From: Marivivens sp.
GTDB lineage: Bacteria > Pseudomonadota > Alphaproteobacteria > Rhodobacterales > Rhodobacteraceae
NCBI GenBank assembly: GCA_023254495.1
Contig: JALRLK010000147.1
Location: 1 to 47,389 of the forward strand
Reading direction: 5' to 3'
Length of the DNA: 47,389 nucleotides
Part shown: positions 2,993 through 38,372 of the stretch, one piece after another
Numbering within the stretch: position 1 is the stretch's first letter
How the letters are laid out: the number at the start of each line of letters is the position of its first letter
Program-made: the position numbers and the translations under genes
Notes under the pieces: model-generated
The model's input: the letters and a program-made list of their open reading frames with translations, nothing else
What the model was told of the DNA's origin: nothing
The model's database searches: none

Positions 2993-4170
2993 CTAGGCTA
3001 TCCGTGTTCTAAGCGGCATCTCCGGCATCTCTCCGCTCTCGAGCCGCTCGAGCGCGACCTCGACCGGACAGGCCATTCCCGTCACGGGGTCGAAATAGCG
3101 CGGATAGGCGATCAGGGCGGCATGGGCGAGCGCCACGATATCAGGCCGTACCTGACGGCGCGGGATCGGGCGGGCGCGATCGTCGGTCAGGCCCCAGCCT
3201 GCATAGAAGGGCTGGCCGAGACAGGTGACGCGCCTGCCGCGCAGGAGCGCCTCGAAGCCGAGGGTCGAGGTGATGGTCCTGACATCGTCGGCCAGATCAA
3301 TGGCGTCGGCGGCGGAGACATCGTCGAGCACGGCATCGGCAAAGGCGAGGGGATCAGAAACAGCCCCCTTGCGTAGCCCCGCCACTACATCGGGATGCGG
3401 TTTGTAGAGGATAACAGCGGCGGGATTTGCGGCCCGAGCCTTGGCGAGAAGGGCTGCGTTGGTGCGAACCTCACCCGCGCCGAGCAGGACCGAGGCATCG
3501 TCCTCGACCTGACCCACCACGAGGATGCGCCGCCCCGCAGGCAGGCCTTGGGGGAGCGCCCCTGCGCCGGTGTTGTATTTGCTGATCCGTTGGCGGGTGA
3601 GCCGCGCGATTAGACGCTCTGCCCTTGTCCGATCGGCCTCGGGCAGGATCTCGCTGGCATTGATGAGGTCTTCAAGATCACTCGGGGCGGTCGGGTCGTA
3701 GTAGATTCCCTTCCGGTCCAGAACGAGGCTCAGGGGCGGGACGAGCCGCGCGCCAAGGCCGCGTGAGCGCAGGAACCCGTCCTCGACCCGCACCGCGCCC
3801 GCCGCCTTCGCCGCCTCATCCATCCGTCCGGCCCAAGCCAGGAGCGGCGGGCCATCGGTTGGCGGGTTATTGCGAAAGGTGATCCCTTTGGCGCCACCGA
3901 ACATCGCCCGCAGGTGCGGGTGCTTCCAGCGGCTCATGCCGATCGCGGTCCAGCCCTGATGATCGTCACGCCAGGCGCGGGCCAACTTTCCTGCGTACCA
4001 GTGAAGGCGATAAAACTTTGATCCTTGGGCCAAAAGGCCCGGTCTCCTGCGTTGAAGCCGACCCGCCAAACCTTTGCTCCCGCCGCGATCAGCATCCGGC
4101 CCAGCTGCCGGAAAAACGGCCCGTGTGGGCCTTGCAGGAACAGGACGTGGCGGGTGACTGTGCTGCTCAT
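2993..4170 (-). pseudogene. Capsule export remnant: KpsS-like N-terminus (4170 to about 3990) joined out of frame to KpsC-like second module (about 3990 to 2993)
   Basis: Frame A: MSSTVTRHVLFLQGPHGPFFRQLGRMLIAAGAKVWRVGFNAGDRAFWPKDQSFIAFTGTQESWP (KpsS-like). Frame B: AWRDDHQGWTAIGMSRWKHPHLRAMF...VEDGFLRSRGLGARLVPPLSLVLDRKGIYYDPT...FYAGWGLTDD (KpsC second module). Confidence 0.65.
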
Positions 4171-4282
4171 GGCGCTCTTGGTGGTTCAGCGCAGCATATC
4201 AGGGGCTTTGCCCGGAATGCGAGGCTTGTCTTGCTTGCCTGCGGGCGAGGCGCTAGGCAAAGGCAAGGCAGAAGGAGCGAAG

Positions 4283-4879
4283 ATGTTTACCGGCATTGTA
4301 ACCGACATGGGCGAGATCCTCGAGCTTGAGCAGCGGGGCGACCTTCGGGCGCGGATCGGCACGAGCTATGATGTCTCCGGCATCGACATCGGCGCCTCGA
4401 TTGCCTGCAGCGGCGTTTGCCTGACGGTAGTGGCCCTTGGATCAACTCCGAAGAACTGGTTCGACGTCGAGATCAGCGCCGAGACGGTCAATCTGACCAA
4501 TGTGGGCGGCTGGAAGGTCGGACAGCGCATCAACCTCGAGCGGGCGCTCAAGGTGGGCGACGAGCTCGGGGGGCATATCGTTTCCGGCCATGTCGATGGC
4601 GTGGCGGATCTGATCGAAATGCATGACGAAGGCGACAGCACGCGCATGACCTTCCGCGCGCCCGAGCATCTGGCGAAGTTCATCGCGCCCAAGGGGTCGG
4701 TCGCCTTGAACGGTACTTCCCTCACCGTCAACGAGGTGAACGGCGCGACCTTCGGCATCAATGTGATCCCGCACACCAAGGACGTGACCACGTGGGGCGC
4801 GGCCAAGGTGGGTGACAAGATCAACCTCGAGGTCGATACCATGGCGCGCTATGTGGCGCGGCTGCAGGAATGGGCCTAG
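4283..4879 (+). CDS. ribE: Riboflavin synthase alpha chain
   Basis: MFTGIVTDMGEILELEQRGD... duplicated lumazine-binding repeats (SGHVDGVADL, LNGTSLTVNEV). Confidence 0.96.
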   Translation: MFTGIVTDMGEILELEQRGDLRARIGTSYDVSGIDIGASIACSGVCLTVVALGSTPKNWFDVEISAETVNLTNVGGWKVGQRINLERALKVGDELGGHIVSGHVDGVADLIEMHDEGDSTRMTFRAPEHLAKFIAPKGSVALNGTSLTVNEVNGATFGINVIPHTKDVTTWGAAKVGDKINLEVDTMARYVARLQEWA

Positions 4880-5433
4880 GGGCGGGCATCGGCCATAACG
4901 GCGGGCCGACGCTGGAAAGCGGCGGCGCGTGGCGGCGCATCGCTTGGAAGAAGGCGCGTGAAGAGCTGCTCCCGACCCTGCCGATCGAGGTCGTCCGCCT
5001 GAGGGTCAACCGTGCCAAAGAGCTTGGCCTTCCTTACAAGACCTATGCCAGTTTTCGCGCGGCGACGGGCCATGACCTTGTTGGATTTCTATTTTCGTCC
5101 AATGCCTTGTGGCTGGAGCGCGGCGCAGAGGGTGCGGCGCGACTTGGCCGGATCGAGGCGATCTCGGCGACCCGTTTGGCGGTCGTCCTGCCGCCCTTGC
5201 GCCCCGAAGCGGTGGCCCGTCTGACCGGCATCGACGCGGCGCACAGAGCGCCCACCCTGTCGATGACATGGCGCGAGACCCGTGAGGCGATCAAGGCCAT
5301 GGCCCGTGCCCAAGGGCATAAGTCAGCCCAGTTCGTTCTGGTGGGCGAGACTGCGCTCGAAGAAGACTGGGCCTATACCGGCCAGACGGCGGGCTTCTTG
5401 GCCGGTGACAGGTTCTTCGAAGCGCGGCCATAG
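4870..5433 (+). CDS. Conserved protein of unknown function with N-terminal IGHNGGPTLE motif
   Basis: MGLGAGIGHNGGPTLESGGAWRRIAWKKAREELLPTL...YKTYASFRAATGHDLVGFLFSSNALWL; overlaps ribE end by 10 nt. Confidence 0.8.
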   Translation: MGLGAGIGHNGGPTLESGGAWRRIAWKKAREELLPTLPIEVVRLRVNRAKELGLPYKTYASFRAATGHDLVGFLFSSNALWLERGAEGAARLGRIEAISATRLAVVLPPLRPEAVARLTGIDAAHRAPTLSMTWRETREAIKAMARAQGHKSAQFVLVGETALEEDWAYTGQTAGFLAGDRFFEARP

Positions 5434-5571
5434 CCCACGGCGAAAACCGCCGAAACCTGTCGTTTCAGCCCGCGCTCGTTCCACCGCAATGACCCAATGT
5501 CACGGGGCTTTTCCCCTTTAAACGGGGGCCAACTAGGGCTATTTGCCGGACGAAGACTGAAGGGGAATACC

Positions 5572-6699
5572 ATGTCGCTGCCTTTTGAAGAGCCGGGCCC
5601 TGTCGAGAAAGACTGGTCCGATGCGATCAGCCCGATCGAAGAGATCATCAACGATGCCCGCAACGGCCGGATGTTTATCCTTGTCGATCACGAGGATCGC
5701 GAGAACGAAGGCGATCTGGTGATCCCCGCCCAGATGGCAACTCCGGACGCAATCAACTTCATGGCAACCCACGGGCGCGGCCTGATCTGCCTGTCGCTCA
5801 CCAGCACCCGGATTGATCAGCTTGGCCTGCCGCTCATGGCCTCGCAGAACTCCTCGCGTCACGAGACCGCCTTCACCGTTTCCATCGAGGCCCGCGAAGG
5901 CGTCAGCACAGGCATTTCCGCCCATGACCGCGCCCGCACCGTTTCCGTGGCGATCGACGCCTCCAAAAGCGCGACCGATATCGCCACCCCCGGCCACGTC
6001 TTTCCGCTGCGCGCCCGCGATGGCGGCGTGCTCGTCCGCGCGGGCCATACCGAGGCCGCGGTGGATATCAGCCGCCTTGCCGGCCTCAACCCCTCGGGCG
6101 TGATCTGCGAGATCATGAAGGAAGACGGGACAATGGCCCGCCTGCCCGATCTCATCGCCTTCGCCCAGCGGCACAACCTCAAGATCGGCACCATCTCCGA
6201 CTTGATCGCCTATCGCCGCCGCTACGACAATCTCGTGCGGATGACCGAAGCCGACACGATACAAAGCGAATTTGGCGGCGACTGGTCGATGCGGATCTTC
6301 ACCGACGAAATTCAGGGCGCCGAGCATATCGCGCTGACCAAGGGCGATCTGTCGGGCGACGAGCCGGTTCTGGTGCGGATGCACGCGCTTGATCCGATGC
6401 TCGACGTGATCGGCACCGGCCCCGCAGGCCGCACCCGCGAATTTGGCGATGCGATGACCATGATTGCCAAGGAAGGCCGCGGCGCGGTGATCCTGCTGCG
6501 CGATCTGCACATGAAGCTGCACGCCCATGATTTCGCCTCGCCCCAGACCCTCCGCCAATATGGCGTGGGGGCGCAGATCCTGTCGTCGTTGGGCCTGTCG
6601 CGGATTGTGCTTCTGACCAATTCGCCCAAGCCCAAGGTGATCGGCCTTGATGCCTATGGCATTGAAATCGTTGATACCCGCAAGGTTGAGGGGGCATAG
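5572..6699 (+). CDS. ribB: 3,4-dihydroxy-2-butanone 4-phosphate synthase with degenerate GTP cyclohydrolase II-like C-terminal domain (RibBX type)
   Basis: ILVDHEDRENEGDLVIPAQ, SRHETAFTVSIEA DHBPS motifs; C-terminal domain lacks the GCH II cysteine cluster. Confidence 0.93.
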   Translation: MSLPFEEPGPVEKDWSDAISPIEEIINDARNGRMFILVDHEDRENEGDLVIPAQMATPDAINFMATHGRGLICLSLTSTRIDQLGLPLMASQNSSRHETAFTVSIEAREGVSTGISAHDRARTVSVAIDASKSATDIATPGHVFPLRARDGGVLVRAGHTEAAVDISRLAGLNPSGVICEIMKEDGTMARLPDLIAFAQRHNLKIGTISDLIAYRRRYDNLVRMTEADTIQSEFGGDWSMRIFTDEIQGAEHIALTKGDLSGDEPVLVRMHALDPMLDVIGTGPAGRTREFGDAMTMIAKEGRGAVILLRDLHMKLHAHDFASPQTLRQYGVGAQILSSLGLSRIVLLTNSPKPKVIGLDAYGIEIVDTRKVEGA

Positions 6700-10246: not shown

Positions 10247-10323
10247 GCCGCCTTAGCTCAGTTGGTTAGAGCGCTGGATTGTGGATCCAGAGGTCCCCTG
10301 TTCAAGCCAGGGAGGCGGTACCA
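10247..10323 (+). tRNA. tRNA-His (anticodon GTG), CCA encoded
   Basis: Cloverleaf: acceptor GCCGCCT/AGGCGGT, anticodon stem CTGGA-TTGTGGA-TCCAG, T arm CCCTG-TTCAAGC-CAGGG, discriminator A, CCA. Confidence 0.97.
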
Positions 10324-10330
10324 TCTCCCC

Positions 10331-10633
10331 CTAGTTGATCTCGATCTCCGCAAGAAGCGGCGCCCATCCCGCGCCGTGCATATCCCTGTCATGCGCTGTG
10401 CCTTGGATTGCTGGGCGGGGCAGGCTGAATTTGACCACGTTCAGATCGGCGATGTCGAAGCGTTTGAGCGTGGCTTCCTCGACCTTGAAAAGCCGCGCCA
10501 CGCGGTCGGTCGAAAGCCCGTTCACGACCCGCGCATAGGCCTCGGGCGAGCCGCAGAAGATATCAACGGTGAGCCAGAAGGGGCCCGCGTTCTTGGAGCG
10601 GACCTTTTCGACGATGGAGCCAAGCTCAGGCAT
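10331..10633 (-). CDS. DUF4387 domain protein
   Basis: VRSKNAGPFWLTVDIFCGSPEAYARV...LPRPAIQGTAHDRDMHGAGWAPLL. Confidence 0.85.
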   Translation of the reverse strand: MPELGSIVEKVRSKNAGPFWLTVDIFCGSPEAYARVVNGLSTDRVARLFKVEEATLKRFDIADLNVVKFSLPRPAIQGTAHDRDMHGAGWAPLLAEIEIN

Positions 10634-11978
10634 CGCGCACCTCGAGGCTGAAGGCGTCCATCGGATTGTCCAACTCTATCACATGGTTGAGGCAGAATTC
10701 ATAGATCGCGCCACGGTCGATCTCGGCGGGCGAGAAGGGGAAGGCGAAGGTCGGCTGCTCTTCCTCGCGGGTCAGCGGGTGATGCAGCAGGAAGGGATTG
10801 AGAAGTTTGCCGATTTCGTTGGCGCGTTGCTGCGTGGCCGCGGTGATGATGCCCATGACACCCGCCTCGGCAGGGGCTTCGCGCCGCGTCTCGAGCGTCC
10901 CGAGGGTGGCTTCGACGCCGATGATCCTTAGCTCGCAGGAATACTCCTCGGGCCCAAGCCCCATGCGATTGGCCACGCGCTGGGCATGGCGGCGAGCGAT
11001 ATCGTCGACCCAAGCGCGGATGTTCTCGACATAGCGGCGGTCGCGCACGGTGGCGAGAAGGAGCGTCTGATAACCCGCCACCCGCGCGCCTTCGAGTTTG
11101 ACGGTATAGCGATCAGACGGAACCCAGACAGAGCCGGTGACGCGCACGCTCGTGTCGTCTAACGCGGTGTATTTGGCGGCGGTCACGTCGAGGTGCCCAC
11201 CCGGTTCATAGAGCATGAACGGGTCGGAATTCTCGTAAAGCATATGCGCCGAAACGGTGTGGGGCGAGCAATGCGCCCCGTCTGCAAGCGGCGTGACGGT
11301 GAAGCCTTCCGCGTCGATATCAATCTGGATCACGCCCGATTGCGGGTTGGTCGCGCAAAGCGCCCCGCATTCTCCGATCTTGGCCGCGTGCCAAGCCGCG
11401 CCCGCGTGATCGCCCCGCATGAGGGGCAGGGCCGCGATGATCGCGGTGTCGGTCGTTCGCCCCGCGATGACGATATCGGCGCCTGTCCTGAGCGCTTCGG
11501 CGATCTGTTCGGCCCCAGCGAGGGCGACGATATGGGTGGTAGATCCGATCAGGTCGGCGCTGATCTCGGGCGCGTGGGGCAGGGGCGTCACCCGGCCTTC
11601 CGTCAGCGCGTCTGTGACCCGCTCCTTCGGCTGTTCAGACTTCAAAACAGCGATCTTGGCCGAAAGCCCAAGCTCGGCCAGCACTTCGACGGTGATCTCA
11701 TAGAGCCACTCAACCGTGCTATCGGCGCCGCAGGTGCCTGCCGTGCCGATCACCAGCGGGCAACCCGCCTCGACCCGCGCGGCGATGAGGCCCTTCCATT
11801 CGGCCTTGGTCCCGGCGCGGGAATATTTCGAGACACCCCGCCCAAGATAAGAGGGCCCACTGTCGGTGGACCCTCCGTCAATCGCGATCAGATCGGGTTT
11901 TGCGGCAACCCCCCGGGCCAAGGCGTCGGCATCATAGCCGAGGCCCAAGGCGCCCGAGGGGATGAGGATGCGGGTCAT
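10626..11978 (-). CDS. Acyclic terpene utilization AtuA-type (DUF1446) protein
   Basis: LIPSGALGLGYDADALARGVAAKPDLIAIDGGSTDSGPSYLG...VIAGRTTDTAIIAALPLMRGDHAGAAWHAAKIGECGALC. Confidence 0.9.
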   Translation of the reverse strand: MTRILIPSGALGLGYDADALARGVAAKPDLIAIDGGSTDSGPSYLGRGVSKYSRAGTKAEWKGLIAARVEAGCPLVIGTAGTCGADSTVEWLYEITVEVLAELGLSAKIAVLKSEQPKERVTDALTEGRVTPLPHAPEISADLIGSTTHIVALAGAEQIAEALRTGADIVIAGRTTDTAIIAALPLMRGDHAGAAWHAAKIGECGALCATNPQSGVIQIDIDAEGFTVTPLADGAHCSPHTVSAHMLYENSDPFMLYEPGGHLDVTAAKYTALDDTSVRVTGSVWVPSDRYTVKLEGARVAGYQTLLLATVRDRRYVENIRAWVDDIARRHAQRVANRMGLGPEEYSCELRIIGVEATLGTLETRREAPAEAGVMGIITAATQQRANEIGKLLNPFLLHHPLTREEEQPTFAFPFSPAEIDRGAIYEFCLNHVIELDNPMDAFSLEVRDA

Positions 11979-11979
11979 C

Positions 11980-13485
11980 TCATTCGGTTACCATCTGCGG
12001 CTTGCGCAGATAGCGGCGCAAGAACATCGGCGCGATGAACCCAAGAGCCGCGGCGACCCATAGGCCGATCGAGATCGGGGACGACAGGAGATAGGTCCAT
12101 TCACCGCCCGAAAGGGTCATCGCGTGGCGCAGGTTGTTTTCCATCTGATAGCCCAGAAGGATGCCGAGAATGACCGGCACGGTCGGGATATCCATCTTGC
12201 GGAAGACATAGCCCATGACGCCAAAGCCCACCATCAGGAGAAGATCGAAGTAGCTGCCCGAGAGGGAATAGATGCCGACGAAAGAGATCATCGTCACCCC
12301 CGGCAGCAGGATCGCGGGCGGCACCTGAAGGATGCGCACGAAAACCTTCACCATCGGCACGTTCATTGCCAGCAGGACGAAGTTGGCGATGAGAAGCGCC
12401 GCGATCAGGCCCCAGACGACTTCGGGCCGGTCGGCAAAAAGGGTCGGGCCGGGGGTGATGTTCAGCGTCATCAGAACCGCCAGAAGAACCGCCGTGGTGC
12501 CCGAGCCGGGAACGCCCAGCGTCAGCATCGGCACCAGCGCCCCGCCTGCGGCGGCGTTGTTGCCAGCCTCGGGCGCGGCCACGCCCTTGGCGACACCGGT
12601 CCCGAAACCGCCCTTTTTGCCGGCGAGGGATTTCTCCATCATGTAGGTCATGAATGATCCCAACGAGGCCCCCGCGCCGGGCAGAACGCCCGCGACAAAG
12701 CCCACAGCAGACGAGCGCAGCATGGTCCAGCGGGTCGACCAGATCTCGCGCCACGGCACCGTGACCTTGCCAAGGACGACACCCACGGCGCTGCCTTTGC
12801 CGTGGCTATCGATGAAGAAGAACACCTCCGACACCGCAAAAAGGCCGACAATGGCGACGAGGAAATCAATCCCGTCCGCGAGGTGCAGATTGCCGCCGGT
12901 AAAGCGGGTAAAGCCCGAGTTGTTGTCGATGCCAATGAGCGCGATGCCAAGGCCAATGAACGACGCGAGCGCCGATTTCGCCTGATTGTTCGAGGCCATG
13001 CCGCCAAGGGTTGCGAAGGCGAGGGCGTAGAGGGCGAAGTATTCGGCGGGCCCGAATTTATAAGCGATGCGCGCAAGAAACGGGGCGACGAGGGCAAGGG
13101 CGATGGTCGCAAGGAGCGCGCCCACGAAGGAGGCCACCCCCGAGATCACAAGCGCGTCGCCTGCGCGGCCGTTCTTGGCCATCGGATAGCCGTCGAGCGT
13201 GGTCATCATCGCCGGCTCGTCGCCGGGGATGTTGAGAAGGATCGACGAGATCCGCCCGCCATACATCGCCCCGTAATAGACCGAAGTCAGCAGGACGAGC
13301 GCGGCGGTGGCATCAAGCCCCATGGTGAAGGTGATCGGGATAAGGATCGCCACGCCATTCGAGGGCCCGAGGCCCGGAAGCGCGCCGATGATAGTCCCGA
13401 GAAAGCAGCCGATAACAGCCAGAAAGAGCGTCATGGGCGAAAGCGCGACCTCGAAGCCGAGGGCGAGGTTGGAAAGTATGTCCAT
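11980..13485 (-). CDS. tctA: Tripartite tricarboxylate transporter large membrane subunit TctA
   Basis: GTIIGALPGLGPSNGVAILIPITF..MYGGRISSILLNIPGDEPAMMTTLDGYPMAKNGRAGDAL. Confidence 0.96.
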   Translation of the reverse strand: MDILSNLALGFEVALSPMTLFLAVIGCFLGTIIGALPGLGPSNGVAILIPITFTMGLDATAALVLLTSVYYGAMYGGRISSILLNIPGDEPAMMTTLDGYPMAKNGRAGDALVISGVASFVGALLATIALALVAPFLARIAYKFGPAEYFALYALAFATLGGMASNNQAKSALASFIGLGIALIGIDNNSGFTRFTGGNLHLADGIDFLVAIVGLFAVSEVFFFIDSHGKGSAVGVVLGKVTVPWREIWSTRWTMLRSSAVGFVAGVLPGAGASLGSFMTYMMEKSLAGKKGGFGTGVAKGVAAPEAGNNAAAGGALVPMLTLGVPGSGTTAVLLAVLMTLNITPGPTLFADRPEVVWGLIAALLIANFVLLAMNVPMVKVFVRILQVPPAILLPGVTMISFVGIYSLSGSYFDLLLMVGFGVMGYVFRKMDIPTVPVILGILLGYQMENNLRHAMTLSGGEWTYLLSSPISIGLWVAAALGFIAPMFLRRYLRKPQMVTE

Positions 13486-13495
13486 GGTCAGATCC

Positions 13496-13939
13496 CTAGC
13501 CCATGAGGCTGCGCGGCAGGGCGAAGAGGCCAAGCCCCAGCGCGTATTTGAAAATCACGAATAGGCCCACCGAAAGCCCGATGCCGGTCAGAACCGCGGG
13601 CACAGGGCGCGGCGAAATCTGGTAGCTCAGGATTGCCGCGGCGATTGCGGTCGGGGCGAGAAAGCCAAACGGCTTGAGAGAATAGGCATAGCCGATCAAG
13701 ACGAGTGTGGCGAAGCCGATGGACAGAAGGCTCGGCATTTCGGGCCAATCGGCCTCGGGATCGGGGCGCAGGATCAATCCGGCCGCGCTGACGATCATGC
13801 CGATGGCGACGATGATCGGGAAGGCCTTGGGGCCGAGTTTGTCGAAGAGGTTGCCAGCGGGCAGATTGTAGGCGCTCGTGATGAACACGAGCGCCACAAT
13901 GACCACAACCACACCGAGGATGCGGTCGGACCGGATCAT
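13496..13939 (-). CDS. tctB: Tripartite tricarboxylate transporter small membrane subunit TctB
   Basis: Four-helix protein, GPKAFPIIVAIGMIVSAAGLIL, located between tctA and tctC. Confidence 0.9.
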   Translation of the reverse strand: MIRSDRILGVVVVIVALVFITSAYNLPAGNLFDKLGPKAFPIIVAIGMIVSAAGLILRPDPEADWPEMPSLLSIGFATLVLIGYAYSLKPFGFLAPTAIAAAILSYQISPRPVPAVLTGIGLSVGLFVIFKYALGLGLFALPRSLMG

Positions 13940-14898
13940 TGGATGACGCCGATCTCTTTGCTGAGCTCAACCGTGCTGGCCACAACGCCATCGATCCAGC
14001 TCTGGAAATCGCCACCCACCTTGGTGAAGGGCGCAAGGCCGTTGGCGGCCATAGCTTCCTGCCACTCGGCCGAAGCGGCCACGGCGGCAAGCTTTTCGCC
14101 CCAGGCGTTGAAGGCGTCGTCCGAGATGCCCTTGGGCACATAGAGGCCGCGCCAGTTCACGGCGACCACGTCATAGCCCTGCTCGCGGGCGGTCGGTATG
14201 GCGTCAAAGCCCGGCACCCGCTCTTCGGTCAGGACCGCAAGGGCACGCACTTCGCCCGAGTTGATGAAGCCCACGATTTCCGACATGTCGCCGGTCATCG
14301 CCTGGGTGAAGCCACCGATGGTCTGGGTGATCGCATCCGCGCCACCGTCAACGCCGATGTACTTGACGCTGGTGATGTCGGTAAAGCCTGCGGCCTTGAG
14401 AACCTGCAGCGGCTTCATGTGGTCAAAGCCACCGGCAGCCGAACCACCGGCGAAAGCCACCGAACCCGGATCGGCTTTGATCGCCTCGACAAGGTCGGTC
14501 AGCGACTGGAACGGGCTGTCGGCAGCCACGACGATCACGCCCGGATCAGCGCCAATGGCACCGACAAAGCGCACCTGATCGGCGGTCATGCCGCCAAAGG
14601 CGTTCTGGGCAAGGCGTGTGGTCGTGGCCGAGGAGGCGGCAACGATAAGGTCTTCGTCGGTGTTGCGCTCGGTGACGACATAGGAATAGGCGAGGCCGCC
14701 GCCGGCTCCAGCCATGTTGGTGACCTGAACCGGATCGGCGACGAGGCCGAGGTCGAACAGGATCTTGCCGATCTGGCGGCAGGTGAAGTCCCAGCCGCCG
14801 CCGGGATTGGCGGGGGCGATACACTCGGTGGCGAAGGCTGTGCCGGCCGAGAAGGTGAGGGCGGCGCTGGTCAAAAGCACCTTGAGGGTCTTGTTCAT
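13936..14898 (-). CDS. tctC: Tripartite tricarboxylate transporter substrate-binding protein TctC
   Basis: Signal peptide MNKTLKVLLTSAALTFSAGTAFA then CIAPANPGGGWDFTCRQIGKIL...VTNMAGAGGGLAY. Confidence 0.95.
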   Translation of the reverse strand: MNKTLKVLLTSAALTFSAGTAFATECIAPANPGGGWDFTCRQIGKILFDLGLVADPVQVTNMAGAGGGLAYSYVVTERNTDEDLIVAASSATTTRLAQNAFGGMTADQVRFVGAIGADPGVIVVAADSPFQSLTDLVEAIKADPGSVAFAGGSAAGGFDHMKPLQVLKAAGFTDITSVKYIGVDGGADAITQTIGGFTQAMTGDMSEIVGFINSGEVRALAVLTEERVPGFDAIPTAREQGYDVVAVNWRGLYVPKGISDDAFNAWGEKLAAVAASAEWQEAMAANGLAPFTKVGGDFQSWIDGVVASTVELSKEIGVIQ

Positions 14899-14979: not shown

Positions 14980-15001
14980 AACCTGACACGAACCTGTCAC
15001 G
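14980..15001 (+). repeat. Tandem 11-bp direct repeat AACCTGACACG/AACCTGTCACG; candidate TctD operator
   Basis: Two abutting copies, one mismatch, in the tctC/tctD divergent intergenic region. Confidence 0.55.
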
Positions 15002-15027: not shown

Positions 15028-15693
15028 GTGCGGTTTCTGCTGGTCGAGGATAATCCCGATCTGGCCCGATCGGTTCAGACGCGCCTGTCGCTCGACGGGC
15101 ATGGCGTCGATTGGGCGGCCTGTCTGGCCGATGCCGAGGATCATCTGGCCACCGCGAGCTATGATCTCATCCTTCTCGACATCATGCTGCCCGATGGCGA
15201 CGGGCGCGACTTTCTGGCCGCCCACCGCCGCGCAAAACGAGACACTCCGGTGATCGTGATGACCGCCCGGTCGGCCGTGTCGGACAGGGTTGCGCTACTG
15301 GATACCGGGGCCGACGACTACATCACAAAACCCTTTGATTTCGCAGAGTTGGAGGCACGGGTGCGGGCCGTTCTGCGACGCAGGATGGGCGCCGCCCAAT
15401 CACTTCGCACCTATGCCGATCTGACCTTCGATCCACTGGCCGCAACGATTACGATCGCCGGAGAGGCGCGTGAATTGCGCAACCGCGAACTGCGGCTTTT
15501 CGAGATCCTCCTCGCCGGACCTGATCGCATCTTTTCCAAAGGCCAGCTTTGCGACCGGCTGTTCTCGGCCGCCGAGGCCGTCAGCGACAACGCAATCGAG
15601 GTCTATGTCGGACGTCTGAGGAAAAAACTCGAGGGGAGCACGGTGCGGATCGAGACCGTTCGTGGTGTCGGCTACAGGCTGACGACGCCATGA
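15028..15693 (+). CDS. tctD: OmpR-family response regulator, TctD-like
   Basis: VRFLLVEDNPDLARSVQTRLSLDGH..LILLDIMLPDGDGRDFL..DTGADDYITKPFDFAELEARVRAVLRR and winged-helix C-terminus; GTG start. Confidence 0.92.
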   Translation: MRFLLVEDNPDLARSVQTRLSLDGHGVDWAACLADAEDHLATASYDLILLDIMLPDGDGRDFLAAHRRAKRDTPVIVMTARSAVSDRVALLDTGADDYITKPFDFAELEARVRAVLRRRMGAAQSLRTYADLTFDPLAATITIAGEARELRNRELRLFEILLAGPDRIFSKGQLCDRLFSAAEAVSDNAIEVYVGRLRKKLEGSTVRIETVRGVGYRLTTP

Positions 15694-17078
15694 TGCGGCC
15701 CCGATTTTCCTCGCCCGGTTCGATTCGCCAGCGGCTGATCCTGCAGCTTCTTGTATTGGTCGCGGTCCTGTCTTGGTTGCTGTATCTTTCGGTTCGCACA
15801 GTTGCTGGCGCTGCGGTCGAAACGACTCAGGACGCCATCCTCGGCTCTGCCACCATTGCCATCGCAGAAGAGTTGCGTGGCGGCGTCGATGGTGTGGCAA
15901 TCGATATTCCCTACACCGCATTTTCAATGCTTGGTGCGACCGGCGAGGACCGGGTCTTTTATCGGATCCTCGTCGATGGTGCGACAGTGACCGGCTATGA
16001 GGATTTGCCTTTGGCGGATCAGCCGCTCGGAGGCCTTTCGCCCTTTTTCTACACGCGCGAATATCAGTCCGACACCGTTCGCATCGCCGCTGTGGAACGT
16101 TCGGTCATTGTCGGCAGCAGGCCCGTCAGGGTCGAGGTGATCGTGGCACAGACCCGCTCGGCACAGGATGCAATCGTGGCCCAAATGGCAAACCGTGCGG
16201 CGGCACTTGGCCTTGGGTTCTTTGCCATTGCTGCTCTCTTGTCGCTTCTGACGGCGCGCTCGGTTCTCCAGCCGGTCAATAACCTTGCCGAAGCGGTGGG
16301 GCGGAGGGGACCGCAGGATCTTCGCCCTGTCGAGCGGCCGGTGCCGTCCGAACTTGCACCTCTGGTGGCGGCCCTCAATCAATTCATCGCCCGTCTTTCG
16401 GGAGCGCTGATCCGTACCGAAACCTTCATCACGGAGGCGGCGCATCACATTCGAACACCCCTTGCGACGCTGAGGGCACAAGCCGAGATCGCGCTGCGCC
16501 AGTCGCAGGACGAGGCGGCACGGGCCGCGATCCGCGGGATGATCCGGTCGGTCGACGATTCCGCCCGCTCTGTAGGGCAGCTTCTCGACCATGCGGCGGT
16601 GGTCTATCGCACCGACCAGCGCACCGACGAAGAGATCGATCTTGCCGCGCTGACGCGCGATATGGTTGCTGTTTTCGGCCCAGCCGCCGAGCTGCGCGAC
16701 ATCGGGTTTGAACTAGAGATTCCAGATAAACCGGTCAAGATGACGGCAGACCGCCTGCTGCTTGAGAGTGCAATCCGCAACCTGCTCGACAATGCTGTCA
16801 AATACTCGGCGCTCGAAGGTCTGATTTCTGTGTCGCTCGCGGTTGAGGGCGATCAGGCCCGTCTCGCCGTTTGCGACTGGGGTCGCGGCCTTTCGGGCGC
16901 CAAGAGTGCGACGCTGACCGGCAGATTCAGGCGGGGCGAGAATGTTGCCGATGTGATTGGGTCCGGTCTTGGTCTGACCATTGTACGCGAGGTCGCCGCC
17001 GCCCACGGTGGGGATTTCAGATTGACGGAACGCGAAGGAGGCGGCGCTTGCGCAAACTTATCCTTGCCCTTGGGTTGA
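15690..17078 (+). CDS. tctE: Sensor histidine kinase, TctE-like
   Basis: FITEAAHHIRTPLATLRAQAEIALRQ (H box), LLESAIRNLLDNAVKYS (N box), GSGLGLTIVREVAAAHGG (G box). Confidence 0.93.
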   Translation: MMRPRFSSPGSIRQRLILQLLVLVAVLSWLLYLSVRTVAGAAVETTQDAILGSATIAIAEELRGGVDGVAIDIPYTAFSMLGATGEDRVFYRILVDGATVTGYEDLPLADQPLGGLSPFFYTREYQSDTVRIAAVERSVIVGSRPVRVEVIVAQTRSAQDAIVAQMANRAAALGLGFFAIAALLSLLTARSVLQPVNNLAEAVGRRGPQDLRPVERPVPSELAPLVAALNQFIARLSGALIRTETFITEAAHHIRTPLATLRAQAEIALRQSQDEAARAAIRGMIRSVDDSARSVGQLLDHAAVVYRTDQRTDEEIDLAALTRDMVAVFGPAAELRDIGFELEIPDKPVKMTADRLLLESAIRNLLDNAVKYSALEGLISVSLAVEGDQARLAVCDWGRGLSGAKSATLTGRFRRGENVADVIGSGLGLTIVREVAAAHGGDFRLTEREGGGACANLSLPLG

Positions 17079-18076
17079 TCCTTTCGGCCGCGGGCGCCAA
17101 GGCTTTTGACATCGAAGAAGAACGTTTTTTCGGATCTGGACAGGAAATATCGGTCGTCAGCATCCTTTCGACGACGGATATCGATATCTTCGAGCCTCTG
17201 GTTGTGGCTTTTCAGGCAGCCAATCCGGGGATTGCCGTTCAGTACACCGTCGCAAGCACAACCGAAGTCTATCGTGCGGTTTCGGGCCGAGAGCGGGGTT
17301 CTGATCTGGTCATTTCCTCTGCCATGGACCTTCAGATGAAGCTCGCCAACGATGGCTATGCCCGCGAGCACCGGTCGATCGAGACGGATGCTCTGCCAGC
17401 ATGGGCGCGGTGGCGGGATCAGCTCTTTGCCTTCGCGCAGGAGCCGGTGGTTTTGATCCTCTCTCGCCCGGCCTTTGATGGCCTTCGTCTGCCACAGACC
17501 AGGGCGGATCTGATCGACCTCTTGCGGGCCAACCCGGAGCGCTTCGAAGGGCGCATAGGCACCTACGATCCCAACCGGTCGGGCGCGGGCTATCTCTTCG
17601 CCACTCAGGATGCACGGCAGTCGGACACGTTTTGGCGGCTTTCGGAAGTGATGGGCGGCCTGTCGCCGCGCCTCTACGACGGATCGGGCGCGATGATCGC
17701 GGATGTTCAGGCGGGGCGCCTTGTCTTGGCCTATAATGTCCTTGGCTCCTATGCTGCGGCACAGCTGGCCGGTGATCCGAATGCCGCGTTGATCGAGCTT
17801 GAGGATTTCACCAATGTGCTGTTGCGTACCGCGCTGATCCCGCGCGACGCGGAGCGCCCTGAATTGGGCGCGGCCTTTCTCGATTTTCTTTTGTCTGCCG
17901 AAGGGCAGACCTTGATCGACGAAAAGGCCGGCCTGCCGCGGATCGATGCGGCCACCTTGGCATCGGCGGGGCATCGGCGGCCGATCAGGCTTGATCCGGG
18001 GCTATTGGTGTTTGTCGATCCGTTGAAACGGCAGCGATTCCTGAGCGAATGGACTGCTGCCGTGGTGCGCCGCTAG
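17048..18076 (+). CDS. Extracellular solute-binding protein without adjacent permease
   Basis: LRKLILALGLILSAAGAKA signal peptide (TTG start), FEPLVVAFQAANPGIAVQYTVASTTEVYRAV, LVLAYNVLGSYAA; overlaps tctE by 31 nt. Confidence 0.85.
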   Translation: MRKLILALGLILSAAGAKAFDIEEERFFGSGQEISVVSILSTTDIDIFEPLVVAFQAANPGIAVQYTVASTTEVYRAVSGRERGSDLVISSAMDLQMKLANDGYAREHRSIETDALPAWARWRDQLFAFAQEPVVLILSRPAFDGLRLPQTRADLIDLLRANPERFEGRIGTYDPNRSGAGYLFATQDARQSDTFWRLSEVMGGLSPRLYDGSGAMIADVQAGRLVLAYNVLGSYAAAQLAGDPNAALIELEDFTNVLLRTALIPRDAERPELGAAFLDFLLSAEGQTLIDEKAGLPRIDAATLASAGHRRPIRLDPGLLVFVDPLKRQRFLSEWTAAVVRR

Positions 18077-36956: not shown

Positions 36957-37077
36957 CTTCTGGTCTCCTCGATCGGCTTTTTGCAGCATGGCGCATCGTC
37001 CGCAAATCGCAAGAGCGGCCGCCCCACGATCCGGTGATCTTCTTGACCTTGGGCCAGTGCAGGAGTATGCCCCAAGC

Positions 37078-37130
37078 CGTGGCGATTTGAACCGGATTGC
37101 GGGCCACGTTAAACATTCCGCTAAATAGGA
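37078..37130 (+). ncRNA. SAM-II riboswitch aptamer (metA motif) in metZ leader
   Basis: CGTGGC GATTTGAACCGGATTGCGG GCCACG TTAAACATTCC GCTAAATAGG: 6-bp P1 plus conserved GATTT, ACCG, TTGC, TAAA, GCTAAA-AGG. Confidence 0.9.
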
Positions 37131-37142
37131 AACGGGCTTTGG

Positions 37143-37174
37143 CCCCGATACCTTGTCCGGTGTCGGGGTTTTTT
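37143..37174 (+). terminator. Intrinsic terminator between SAM-II aptamer and metZ
   Basis: CCCCGATACC-TTGTCC-GGTGTCGGGG-TTTTTT, 10-pair stem including one T-G wobble. Confidence 0.88.
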
Positions 37175-37193
37175 GTTGGCCGGAGGGGTCGAA

Positions 37194-38372
37194 ATGGACA
37201 AGTGGAAGAAGCGCACCCGCGCCGTGCACGCGGGCATCCGCCGGAGCCAGTATAATGAGGTAAGCGAAGCGATCTTCCTGACCCAAGGCTTTGTCTATGA
37301 CAGCGCCGAACAGGCCGAGGCCCGCTTTGTCAAAGCTGGCGAGGACGAGTTCATCTATGCCCGCTACGGCAACCCGACCGTGGCTATGTTTGAAGACCGG
37401 ATCGCGAGCCTCGAGGGGGTCGAGGCCGGTTTCGCCACCGCCTCGGGCATGGCCGCCGTCAACGGTGCGCTGATGGCGCTTTTGAAGGCGGGCGATCACA
37501 TCGTCTCGTCGCGGGCTCTTTTCGGTTCCTGCCTCTACATCCTCGAGGATGTGCTGGGCCGCTTTGGCGTGGAAATCACCCTTGTCGATGGCCGCGATCT
37601 GGAGGCTTGGAAAGCCGCCATTCGCCCCGATACCAAGCTCGTCTTTTGCGAATCCGTGTCGAACCCGACGCTTGAAGTGATCGACCTCAAGGCCGTGGCC
37701 GATATCGCCCATGCGAACGGCGCGCTTCTGGTGGTCGACAACGTTTTTGCGACCCCGATCTTTTCCTATGCCGCAGAGGCGGGGGCCGATCTCATCGTCT
37801 ATTCCTCGACCAAGCATATCGACGGACAGGGGCGCTGTCTGGGTGGTGTGATCCTCGGCAAACGCGAGATCGTGCGCGGGCCGGTCGAGACCTATCTCAA
37901 GCACACCGGCGGCGCGATGAGCCCGTTCAACGCTTGGGTCATGCTCAAGTCGCTCGACACGATGGACCTTCGAGTTCGCGCCCAGTCGGCCACCGCGCAG
38001 ACCCTTGCCGAAGGGATCGAAGGCCATGCGGCGGTCGGCCGCGTGCTCTATCCGGGGCTGAAGAGCCACCCCCAGCACAAGCTGGCAATGGATCAGGCCG
38101 GCAACGGCGGCACGGTCATGGCGATCGACCTCAAGGGCGGCAAGGAAGCGGCGTTCCGCTTCCTCAACGCATTGGAAATCTTCACCATTTCCAACAACTT
38201 CGCCGACAGCAAATCTATTGTAACCCATCCGGCGACCACAACCCATCAACGCCTGCCCCAGCCCCAGAAAGACCTTCTCGGTATCACGCCGGGCCTCATC
38301 CGTCTGTCCTGCGGCCTCGAAGATCCGGCTGATCTTCTGGCCGATGTTCTGCAGGCTTTGGCGCAGGTTTGA
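37194..38372 (+). CDS. metZ: O-succinylhomoserine sulfhydrylase
   Basis: YARYGNPTVAMFEDRIASLEGVEAGFATASGMAAV; YSSTKHIDGQGRCLGG PLP lysine region. Confidence 0.95.
   Translation: MDKWKKRTRAVHAGIRRSQYNEVSEAIFLTQGFVYDSAEQAEARFVKAGEDEFIYARYGNPTVAMFEDRIASLEGVEAGFATASGMAAVNGALMALLKAGDHIVSSRALFGSCLYILEDVLGRFGVEITLVDGRDLEAWKAAIRPDTKLVFCESVSNPTLEVIDLKAVADIAHANGALLVVDNVFATPIFSYAAEAGADLIVYSSTKHIDGQGRCLGGVILGKREIVRGPVETYLKHTGGAMSPFNAWVMLKSLDTMDLRVRAQSATAQTLAEGIEGHAAVGRVLYPGLKSHPQHKLAMDQAGNGGTVMAIDLKGGKEAAFRFLNALEIFTISNNFADSKSIVTHPATTTHQRLPQPQKDLLGITPGLIRLSCGLEDPADLLADVLQALAQV

Follow-up and report, generated by a model that had tools for sequence, protein, structure and literature searches.

Introduction

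The closest described relative of the gene pair considered here is CmlAB, the citramalate lyase of PDB entries 9erq and 9evf, in which CmlA is entered as 'Acyclic terpene utilization AtuA family protein' and CmlB as 'DUF4387 domain-containing protein'. Its activity and mechanism are known here from the deposition titles alone, that of 9evf being 'Citramalate lyase - ADP - pyruvate complex'; the bound pyruvate fits the product expected of such a lyase, and the bound ADP points to the involvement of a nucleotide in some way. The CmlA sequence, as read off its search alignment, shares 95% identity with the AtuA protein of an enterobacterial locus (L124) and 94% with that of a Salmonella plasmid (L107); for ECs_0760, the E. 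coli Sakai protein (L105), the value is 92%. These three loci have the gene order glutamate mutase, methylaspartase, AtuA, DUF4387, transporter and FumD-type mesaconase, and the same glutamate mutase/methylaspartase/AtuA/DUF4387/mesaconase operon is found in Prevotella. The pathway formed by glutamate mutase, methylaspartase and mesaconase has been described as far as (S)-citramalate, its further fate being left unclear, and the DUF1446 gene of the enterobacterial methylaspartate operon was recorded as of unknown function (PMC4682846). Since this pathway ends at (S)-citramalate and CmlA is nearly identical to the AtuA protein of the operon, a citramalate lyase appears as its natural last step. 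In E. coli Sakai (positions 4934-6618 of L105) the pair, which is the same in L107 and L124, is labelled as a second '3-methylaspartate ammonia-lyase' (ECs_0760) and an 'acyl-CoA synthetase' (ECs_0759), annotations that look wrong in view of the identity with CmlA of 9erq. Moreover, pairs of the CmlA clade from Prevotella, Klebsiella and Neorhizobium adjoin class I fumarase (fumarate hydratase) genes, and a further pair (L126) adjoins two HpcH/CitE-type lyases and a protein nearest to the mesaconyl-CoA isomerase model (549 bits, against a cut-off of 725).

A second described member of the family is the terpene-type AtuA, a fused protein of 595-600 aa with a C-terminal AtuA_ferredoxin domain (PF23544), which is encoded beside acyl-CoA carboxylase genes (L163, 4713-6500; L164, 3557-5362) and acts on a CoA thioester. 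It is tentatively regarded as an acetate-releasing lyase, and one review credits this step to LiuE and not to AtuA (PMC4097962). Both reactions assigned in the family, those of CmlAB and of terpene AtuA, take an acetate unit off a tertiary 3-hydroxy acid, which would then be the common chemistry of AtuA proteins. The same outcome, an acetate unit and a 2-oxo acid, is achieved by unrelated families, namely the ACP- or CoA-type citramalate and citrate lyases (CitDEF) and the CitE-type citramalyl-CoA lyases.

As regards uptake, the best comparison is the tripartite tricarboxylate transporter TctCBA with its two-component system TctD-TctE. The TctC-type binding proteins form a family that takes many ligands, and in Pseudomonas TctD/TctE responds to tricarboxylates (PMC6403454). 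The present analysis deals with a locus where a transporter of this kind and an AtuA/DUF4387 pair occur in one operon.

Organization of the locus

The window, that is, the whole stretch of 47,389 nucleotides of Marivivens sp. (Rhodobacteraceae, an alphaproteobacterium of marine type) that was analysed, carries on its minus strand, from 14898 to 10331, the five-gene run tctC-tctB-tctA-atuA-DUF4387. All the open reading frames were found with the families and order that the original prediction had given them, and its spacings proved exact: a 4-nt overlap of tctC and tctB, gaps of 10 nt between tctB and tctA and of 1 nt between tctA and atuA, and an 8-nt overlap of atuA and the DUF4387 gene. The periplasmic substrate-binding protein is encoded by tctC (14898-13936; PF03401, 8e-24), the small membrane subunit by tctB (13939-13496; PF07331, 1e-16) and the large one by tctA (13485-11980; PF01970, 6e-145), for which an in-frame TTG upstream would lengthen the reading frame to 13533. 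The three subunits, encoded together and all above the Pfam cut-offs, make up a complete tripartite transporter gene set. The nearest solved chains to TctC are 25hk (the best match) and 4x9t, and it is the only TctC found in the source genome, which is 84% complete. The transporter genes are followed by the atuA-like gene (11978-10626; AtuA PF07287, 1e-23, a partial match over residues 90-400) and the DUF4387 gene (10633-10331; PF14330, 1e-23), the predicted large and small subunits, respectively, of a CmlAB-type C-C lyase.

The operon is flanked by a GNAT acetyltransferase gene, a tRNA-His gene and riboflavin/nusB genes on one side and by a regulator operon on the other; the remaining neighbours in the window (riboflavin genes, nusB, GNAT acetyltransferase, tRNA-His, a sigma factor and an M3 peptidase) are unrelated to it. 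Inspection of these flanks bore out the earlier remark that the pair has no carboxylase, CoA ligase or dehydrogenase as a neighbour, which does not always hold in relatives. The tRNA-His gene (10247-10323, plus strand) and the convergent DUF4387 gene have their 3' ends about 7 nt apart, which leaves hardly any space for a terminator. Elsewhere in the window, a SAM_alpha riboswitch (37069-37145) lies immediately upstream of a gene for a PLP enzyme of Cys/Met metabolism (37173-38372).

Kinship of the AtuA/DUF4387 pair

The original prediction considered the biochemical role of the pair poorly defined, a view that is now out of date, the two homologues being named as citramalate lyase subunits in 9erq and 9evf. 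In a phmmer search of the PDB, the window AtuA matched CmlA (9erq_A) with E=5.9e-79 and 36% identity and the DUF4387 protein matched CmlB (9erq_B) with E=1e-10; chains A and B of 9erq and 9evf were the sole matches at E<=1e-3 for AtuA and DUF4387, respectively. Modelled with AlphaFold2 from 42 sequences of its clade (pLDDT 90), the window AtuA superimposes over its full length on 9evf_A (E=2.6e-48, TM 0.91/0.90), the next match in the PDB standing at E=0.03, so that no second fold was found there with a better value. Furthermore, the window protein retains every one of the 50 residues that are nearly invariant among 142 AtuA-family sequences, including D34, D39, R174, D177, K200, E203, C204, H245, E249, K294, E296, E371 and H432, which would be expected if the window pair and the family share their chemistry. 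Thus, with both subunits homologous, the genes adjacent and fold and invariant residues in common, the pair is assigned on these comparisons to the CmlAB superfamily, and the AtuA-like and DUF4387 proteins probably form one enzyme.

Further evidence comes from terpene AtuA. The DUF4387 profile aligned along its length with an AtuA_ferredoxin profile of 14 sequences (hhalign probability 93.5%, E=2.4e-7, score 44.4), the best of 40 column-shuffled controls scoring 19.7; a first comparison, based on two sequences, had been weak (12%). This likeness suggests that the pair corresponds to the same two-domain enzyme, divided between two genes. Two open reading frames, of 132 and 141 aa (L167, L168), suggest that AtuA_ferredoxin also exists as a stand-alone domain. 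In addition to this domain, terpene AtuA shares with the window pair the Pfam family and a comparable assigned cleavage with release of acetate. It differs in being one fused chain with a CoA thioester substrate and in its neighbours, geranyl-CoA carboxylase and acyl-CoA genes, whereas the window has split genes and no carboxylase. The two AtuA proteins are 30% identical over 291 residues. A terpene role for the window pair was ruled out by the other architecture, neighbours and clade, and the terpenoid acids once proposed as candidate ligands are consequently disfavoured.

The CmlAB fold might also serve another reaction on the imported acid, such as a hydratase, an isomerase or an ATP-dependent activation, with no C-C cleavage. 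The sole fold relative binds ADP, which is unusual in a simple lyase, and the wider family adjoins varied genes, for example those of hydantoinase/oxoprolinase, PrpD, RraA and Iso_dh. Such a role is nevertheless improbable, as the two reactions assigned in the family are both acetate-releasing C-C cleavages and the window operon holds no second enzyme to complete a pathway.

Linkage with the transporter

The tie between the pair and the tripartite transporter, claimed in the original prediction for one locus, proved to be real in the window clade. The same locus is present in culturable Rhodobacteraceae, for example Loktanella sp. IMCC34160 (L021) and Gemmobacter caeni (L033). Among 80 related loci, a window-type TctCBA lies upstream of the pair in 65, a non-orthologous one downstream in 9 and none in 2 with complete flanks, 4 loci being incomplete; pair and transporter are therefore joined in 74 of the 76 informative cases. 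By comparison, about 1% of genes would be expected within 3.5 kb of a tctA gene, given some 3.9 such genes per genome in Rhodobacteraceae. The second TctCBA set is 40% (TctA) and 30% (TctC) identical to that of the window, and a third (L147) has a TctA 38% identical to that of the window and 36% to that of the second set.

It could be argued that transporter and pair are adjacent by chance or co-transfer only: the 65 upstream loci go back to a single ancestral arrangement and cannot be counted as independent, and two loci (L027 and L071) have the pair with no TctCBA. This explanation is very improbable in view of the translationally coupled spacing, the low expectation per gene and the existence of three non-orthologous sets, one of them downstream of the pair, since three mutually unrelated pairings speak for function and not for descent alone. 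At L071 a phage-type integrase gene (3869-5119) lies upstream of the pair, hinting at mobility or decay of that locus.

The linkage does not extend to the whole family. The CmlA clade and the majority of the other AtuA/DUF4387 clades lack the tripartite transporter or have a different one, which makes the link a property of the window clade. Lone TctC-type binding proteins are often encoded beside Burkholderiales pairs, but they are very abundant in that order. The neighbourhood survey proposed at the outset gave, in consequence, a divided answer to the objection that the pair might rarely accompany TctABC: within the window clade they are almost always together, and in the wider family the objection holds. 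The clade-wide tie, including the independent pairings with non-orthologous TctCBA, lends support to the initial idea of a carboxylate uptake and catabolism module.

The divergent regulator operon

Divergently from tctC, an operon of response regulator, histidine kinase and binding protein extends over 15028-18076 on the plus strand. The original prediction had overlooked this operon and the repeat that separates it from tctC. It encodes a TctD-like response regulator of the OmpR/PhoB class (15028-15693, with a GTG start inferred at 15028; PF00072 and PF00486), a TctE-like histidine kinase with a 2CSK_N sensor domain (15690-17078, overlapping the regulator by 4 nt; PF08521, HAMP, HisKA and HATPase_c) and a periplasmic solute-binding protein (17045-18076, with an approximate start; PF13531/PF01547). 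The best NCBIfam match of the regulator is TctD (E=1e-55), with 188 bits against an equivalog cut-off of 337. In many relatives, as in the window, a solute-binding protein stands next to the TctDE-type kinase; it is probably a co-sensor, suggesting a three-part sensor. The locus has in common with the classical TctCBA/TctD-TctE systems the three transporter subunits, the OmpR-class regulator, the 2CSK_N kinase and the divergent arrangement, and differs from them in a regulator under the TctD cut-off, the extra binding protein with the kinase and the lyase genes in the operon.

The intergenic region between tctC and the regulator gene contains, at 14980-14999 (plus strand), a 20-bp tandem direct repeat with an 11-bp period, AACCTGACACG-AACCTGTCA (= AACCTGACACGAACCTGTCA), for which the window gave a single match and 100 shuffles gave none. 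Tandem repeats of 11-bp period are typical of PhoB/OmpR-class sites. The core pattern is present at all 52 loci with a kinase gene and at none of 21 with a window-type TctC and no kinase (Fisher p 9e-19, for loci that share ancestry), and it was not found elsewhere on either strand of 4.8 Mb of related-locus DNA. Whole genomes nearly always have one matching site, beside this operon, with few extra sites in G142, G235, G442 and G002; the search for a wider regulon through the repeat consequently brought no further genes pointing to the substrate. The repeat, judged by its form and distribution, is likely to be the operator of the TctD-like regulator, and its association with the kinase, together with its usual single occurrence, indicates a regulator dedicated to this module.

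Substrate of the window clade

In a tree of 82 AtuA proteins, the window clade (32 rows, mostly TctCBA loci, SH-aLRT 99) stands well apart from the CmlA clade (10 rows, 99). The window protein and CmlA are hence not members of one clade for which the same substrate pocket could be assumed, and the pair is not named citramalate lyase. Between the two clades 42 positions are fixed differently, among them swaps beside invariant residues (window/CmlA: T176/Y179 and T178/P181, by R174 and D177, and S40/P43), in conserved loops. The partners are also different: those of the window pair are a tripartite transporter and a two-component system, while those of CmlAB are glutamate mutase, methylaspartase and mesaconase, and neither mesaconase nor methylaspartase was found beside the pair at any window-clade locus examined. 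Citramalate was thus rejected as a substrate to be taken over outright; in view of clade separation and residue swaps, confidence is moderate in carrying over the type of reaction and low in carrying over the exact substrate.

The main reading, which is judged probable, is a self-contained uptake-and-cleave module for a citramalate-like 2-hydroxydicarboxylate. A narrower form of it would take the pair as CmlAB citramalate lyase, converting (S)- or (R)-citramalate to pyruvate and acetate after import of citramalate by the transporter. The direct homology and fold match to CmlAB favour this form, as do the neighbours of the pair throughout the CmlA clade, which are class I fumarase genes or genes of mesaconate metabolism; with the separate clade, its fixed residue differences and its lack of mesaconate-pathway neighbours on the other side, it is a tentative proposal, and citramalate itself as the substrate of the window module is somewhat doubtful.

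Other neighbours keep the hints among citrate- and citramalate-like acids. At L027, a window-clade locus without TctCBA, the genes at 4374-6325, beside the pair, encode a family III CoA-transferase and a citryl-CoA lyase (424 bits, cut-off 261 for the latter), possibly as a CoA-dependent parallel route; the pair of L060 adjoins a protein of the isocitrate/isopropylmalate-dehydrogenase family, and at the sister-clade locus L136 the neighbours are LeuC/LeuD-like proteins, a protein resembling citrate synthase and a CitMHS transporter. Citrate or a bulkier relative (2-alkylmalate, methylcitrate-type) could accordingly be considered as the substrate, the pair being a CoA-independent citrate-lyase-like enzyme with a classical TctABC/TctDE citrate system. 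The resemblance of the window regulator and kinase to TctD/TctE, tricarboxylate-responsive in Pseudomonas (PMC6403454), argues for such a substrate, together with the genes of L027 and of the sister clade. The score of the regulator, well below the TctD cut-off, argues against it. An aerobe with a TCA cycle, moreover, has no need of a dedicated lyase for citrate, and this substrate is considered unlikely.

According to the main reading of a citramalate-like acid, TctC would take up a compound of the type R-C(OH)(COO-)-CH2-COO-, which TctAB would bring into the cell, and the enzyme formed by the AtuA-like and DUF4387 proteins would split its C-C bond to yield an acetate unit and a 2-oxo acid, which in the case of citramalate would be pyruvate. 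A nucleotide probably takes part in the cleavage, as the CmlAB structure holds ADP together with pyruvate. Both products would enter central metabolism, so that no further dedicated enzyme would be needed, and lyase chemistry would likewise require no CoA ligase or dehydrogenase beside the pair. Unlike CitDEF and CitE lyases, the window pair has no acyl-carrier subunit, CoA-transferase or CitE alongside. The TctD/TctE-like regulator and kinase, with the extra binding protein, may sense the same acid and turn on the operon by way of the 20-bp repeat.

Significance

No paper on the combination of TctCBA, AtuA, DUF4387 and a TctDE-like system was found in the literature searched; the part families are known, and it is their conserved combination that would be new, with a substrate class that is probably citramalate-like. 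It is conceivable, as a more tentative proposal, that the window clade represents a subfamily of nucleotide-dependent CmlAB-type lyases with a new substrate, an acid other than citramalate; with its transporter, three-part sensor and dedicated operator it would constitute an undescribed one-step catabolic module of marine Rhodobacteraceae and Rhizobiaceae.

The whole module is compact, consisting of five genes and a sensor. The kinship with CmlAB offers a simple answer to the question of how citramalate is disposed of in enterobacteria with a methylaspartate operon (PMC4682846). DUF1446/AtuA and DUF4387, two widespread 'unknown' families, gain a testable chemistry, and the module suggests what many Rhodobacteraceae may use one of their transporters for.
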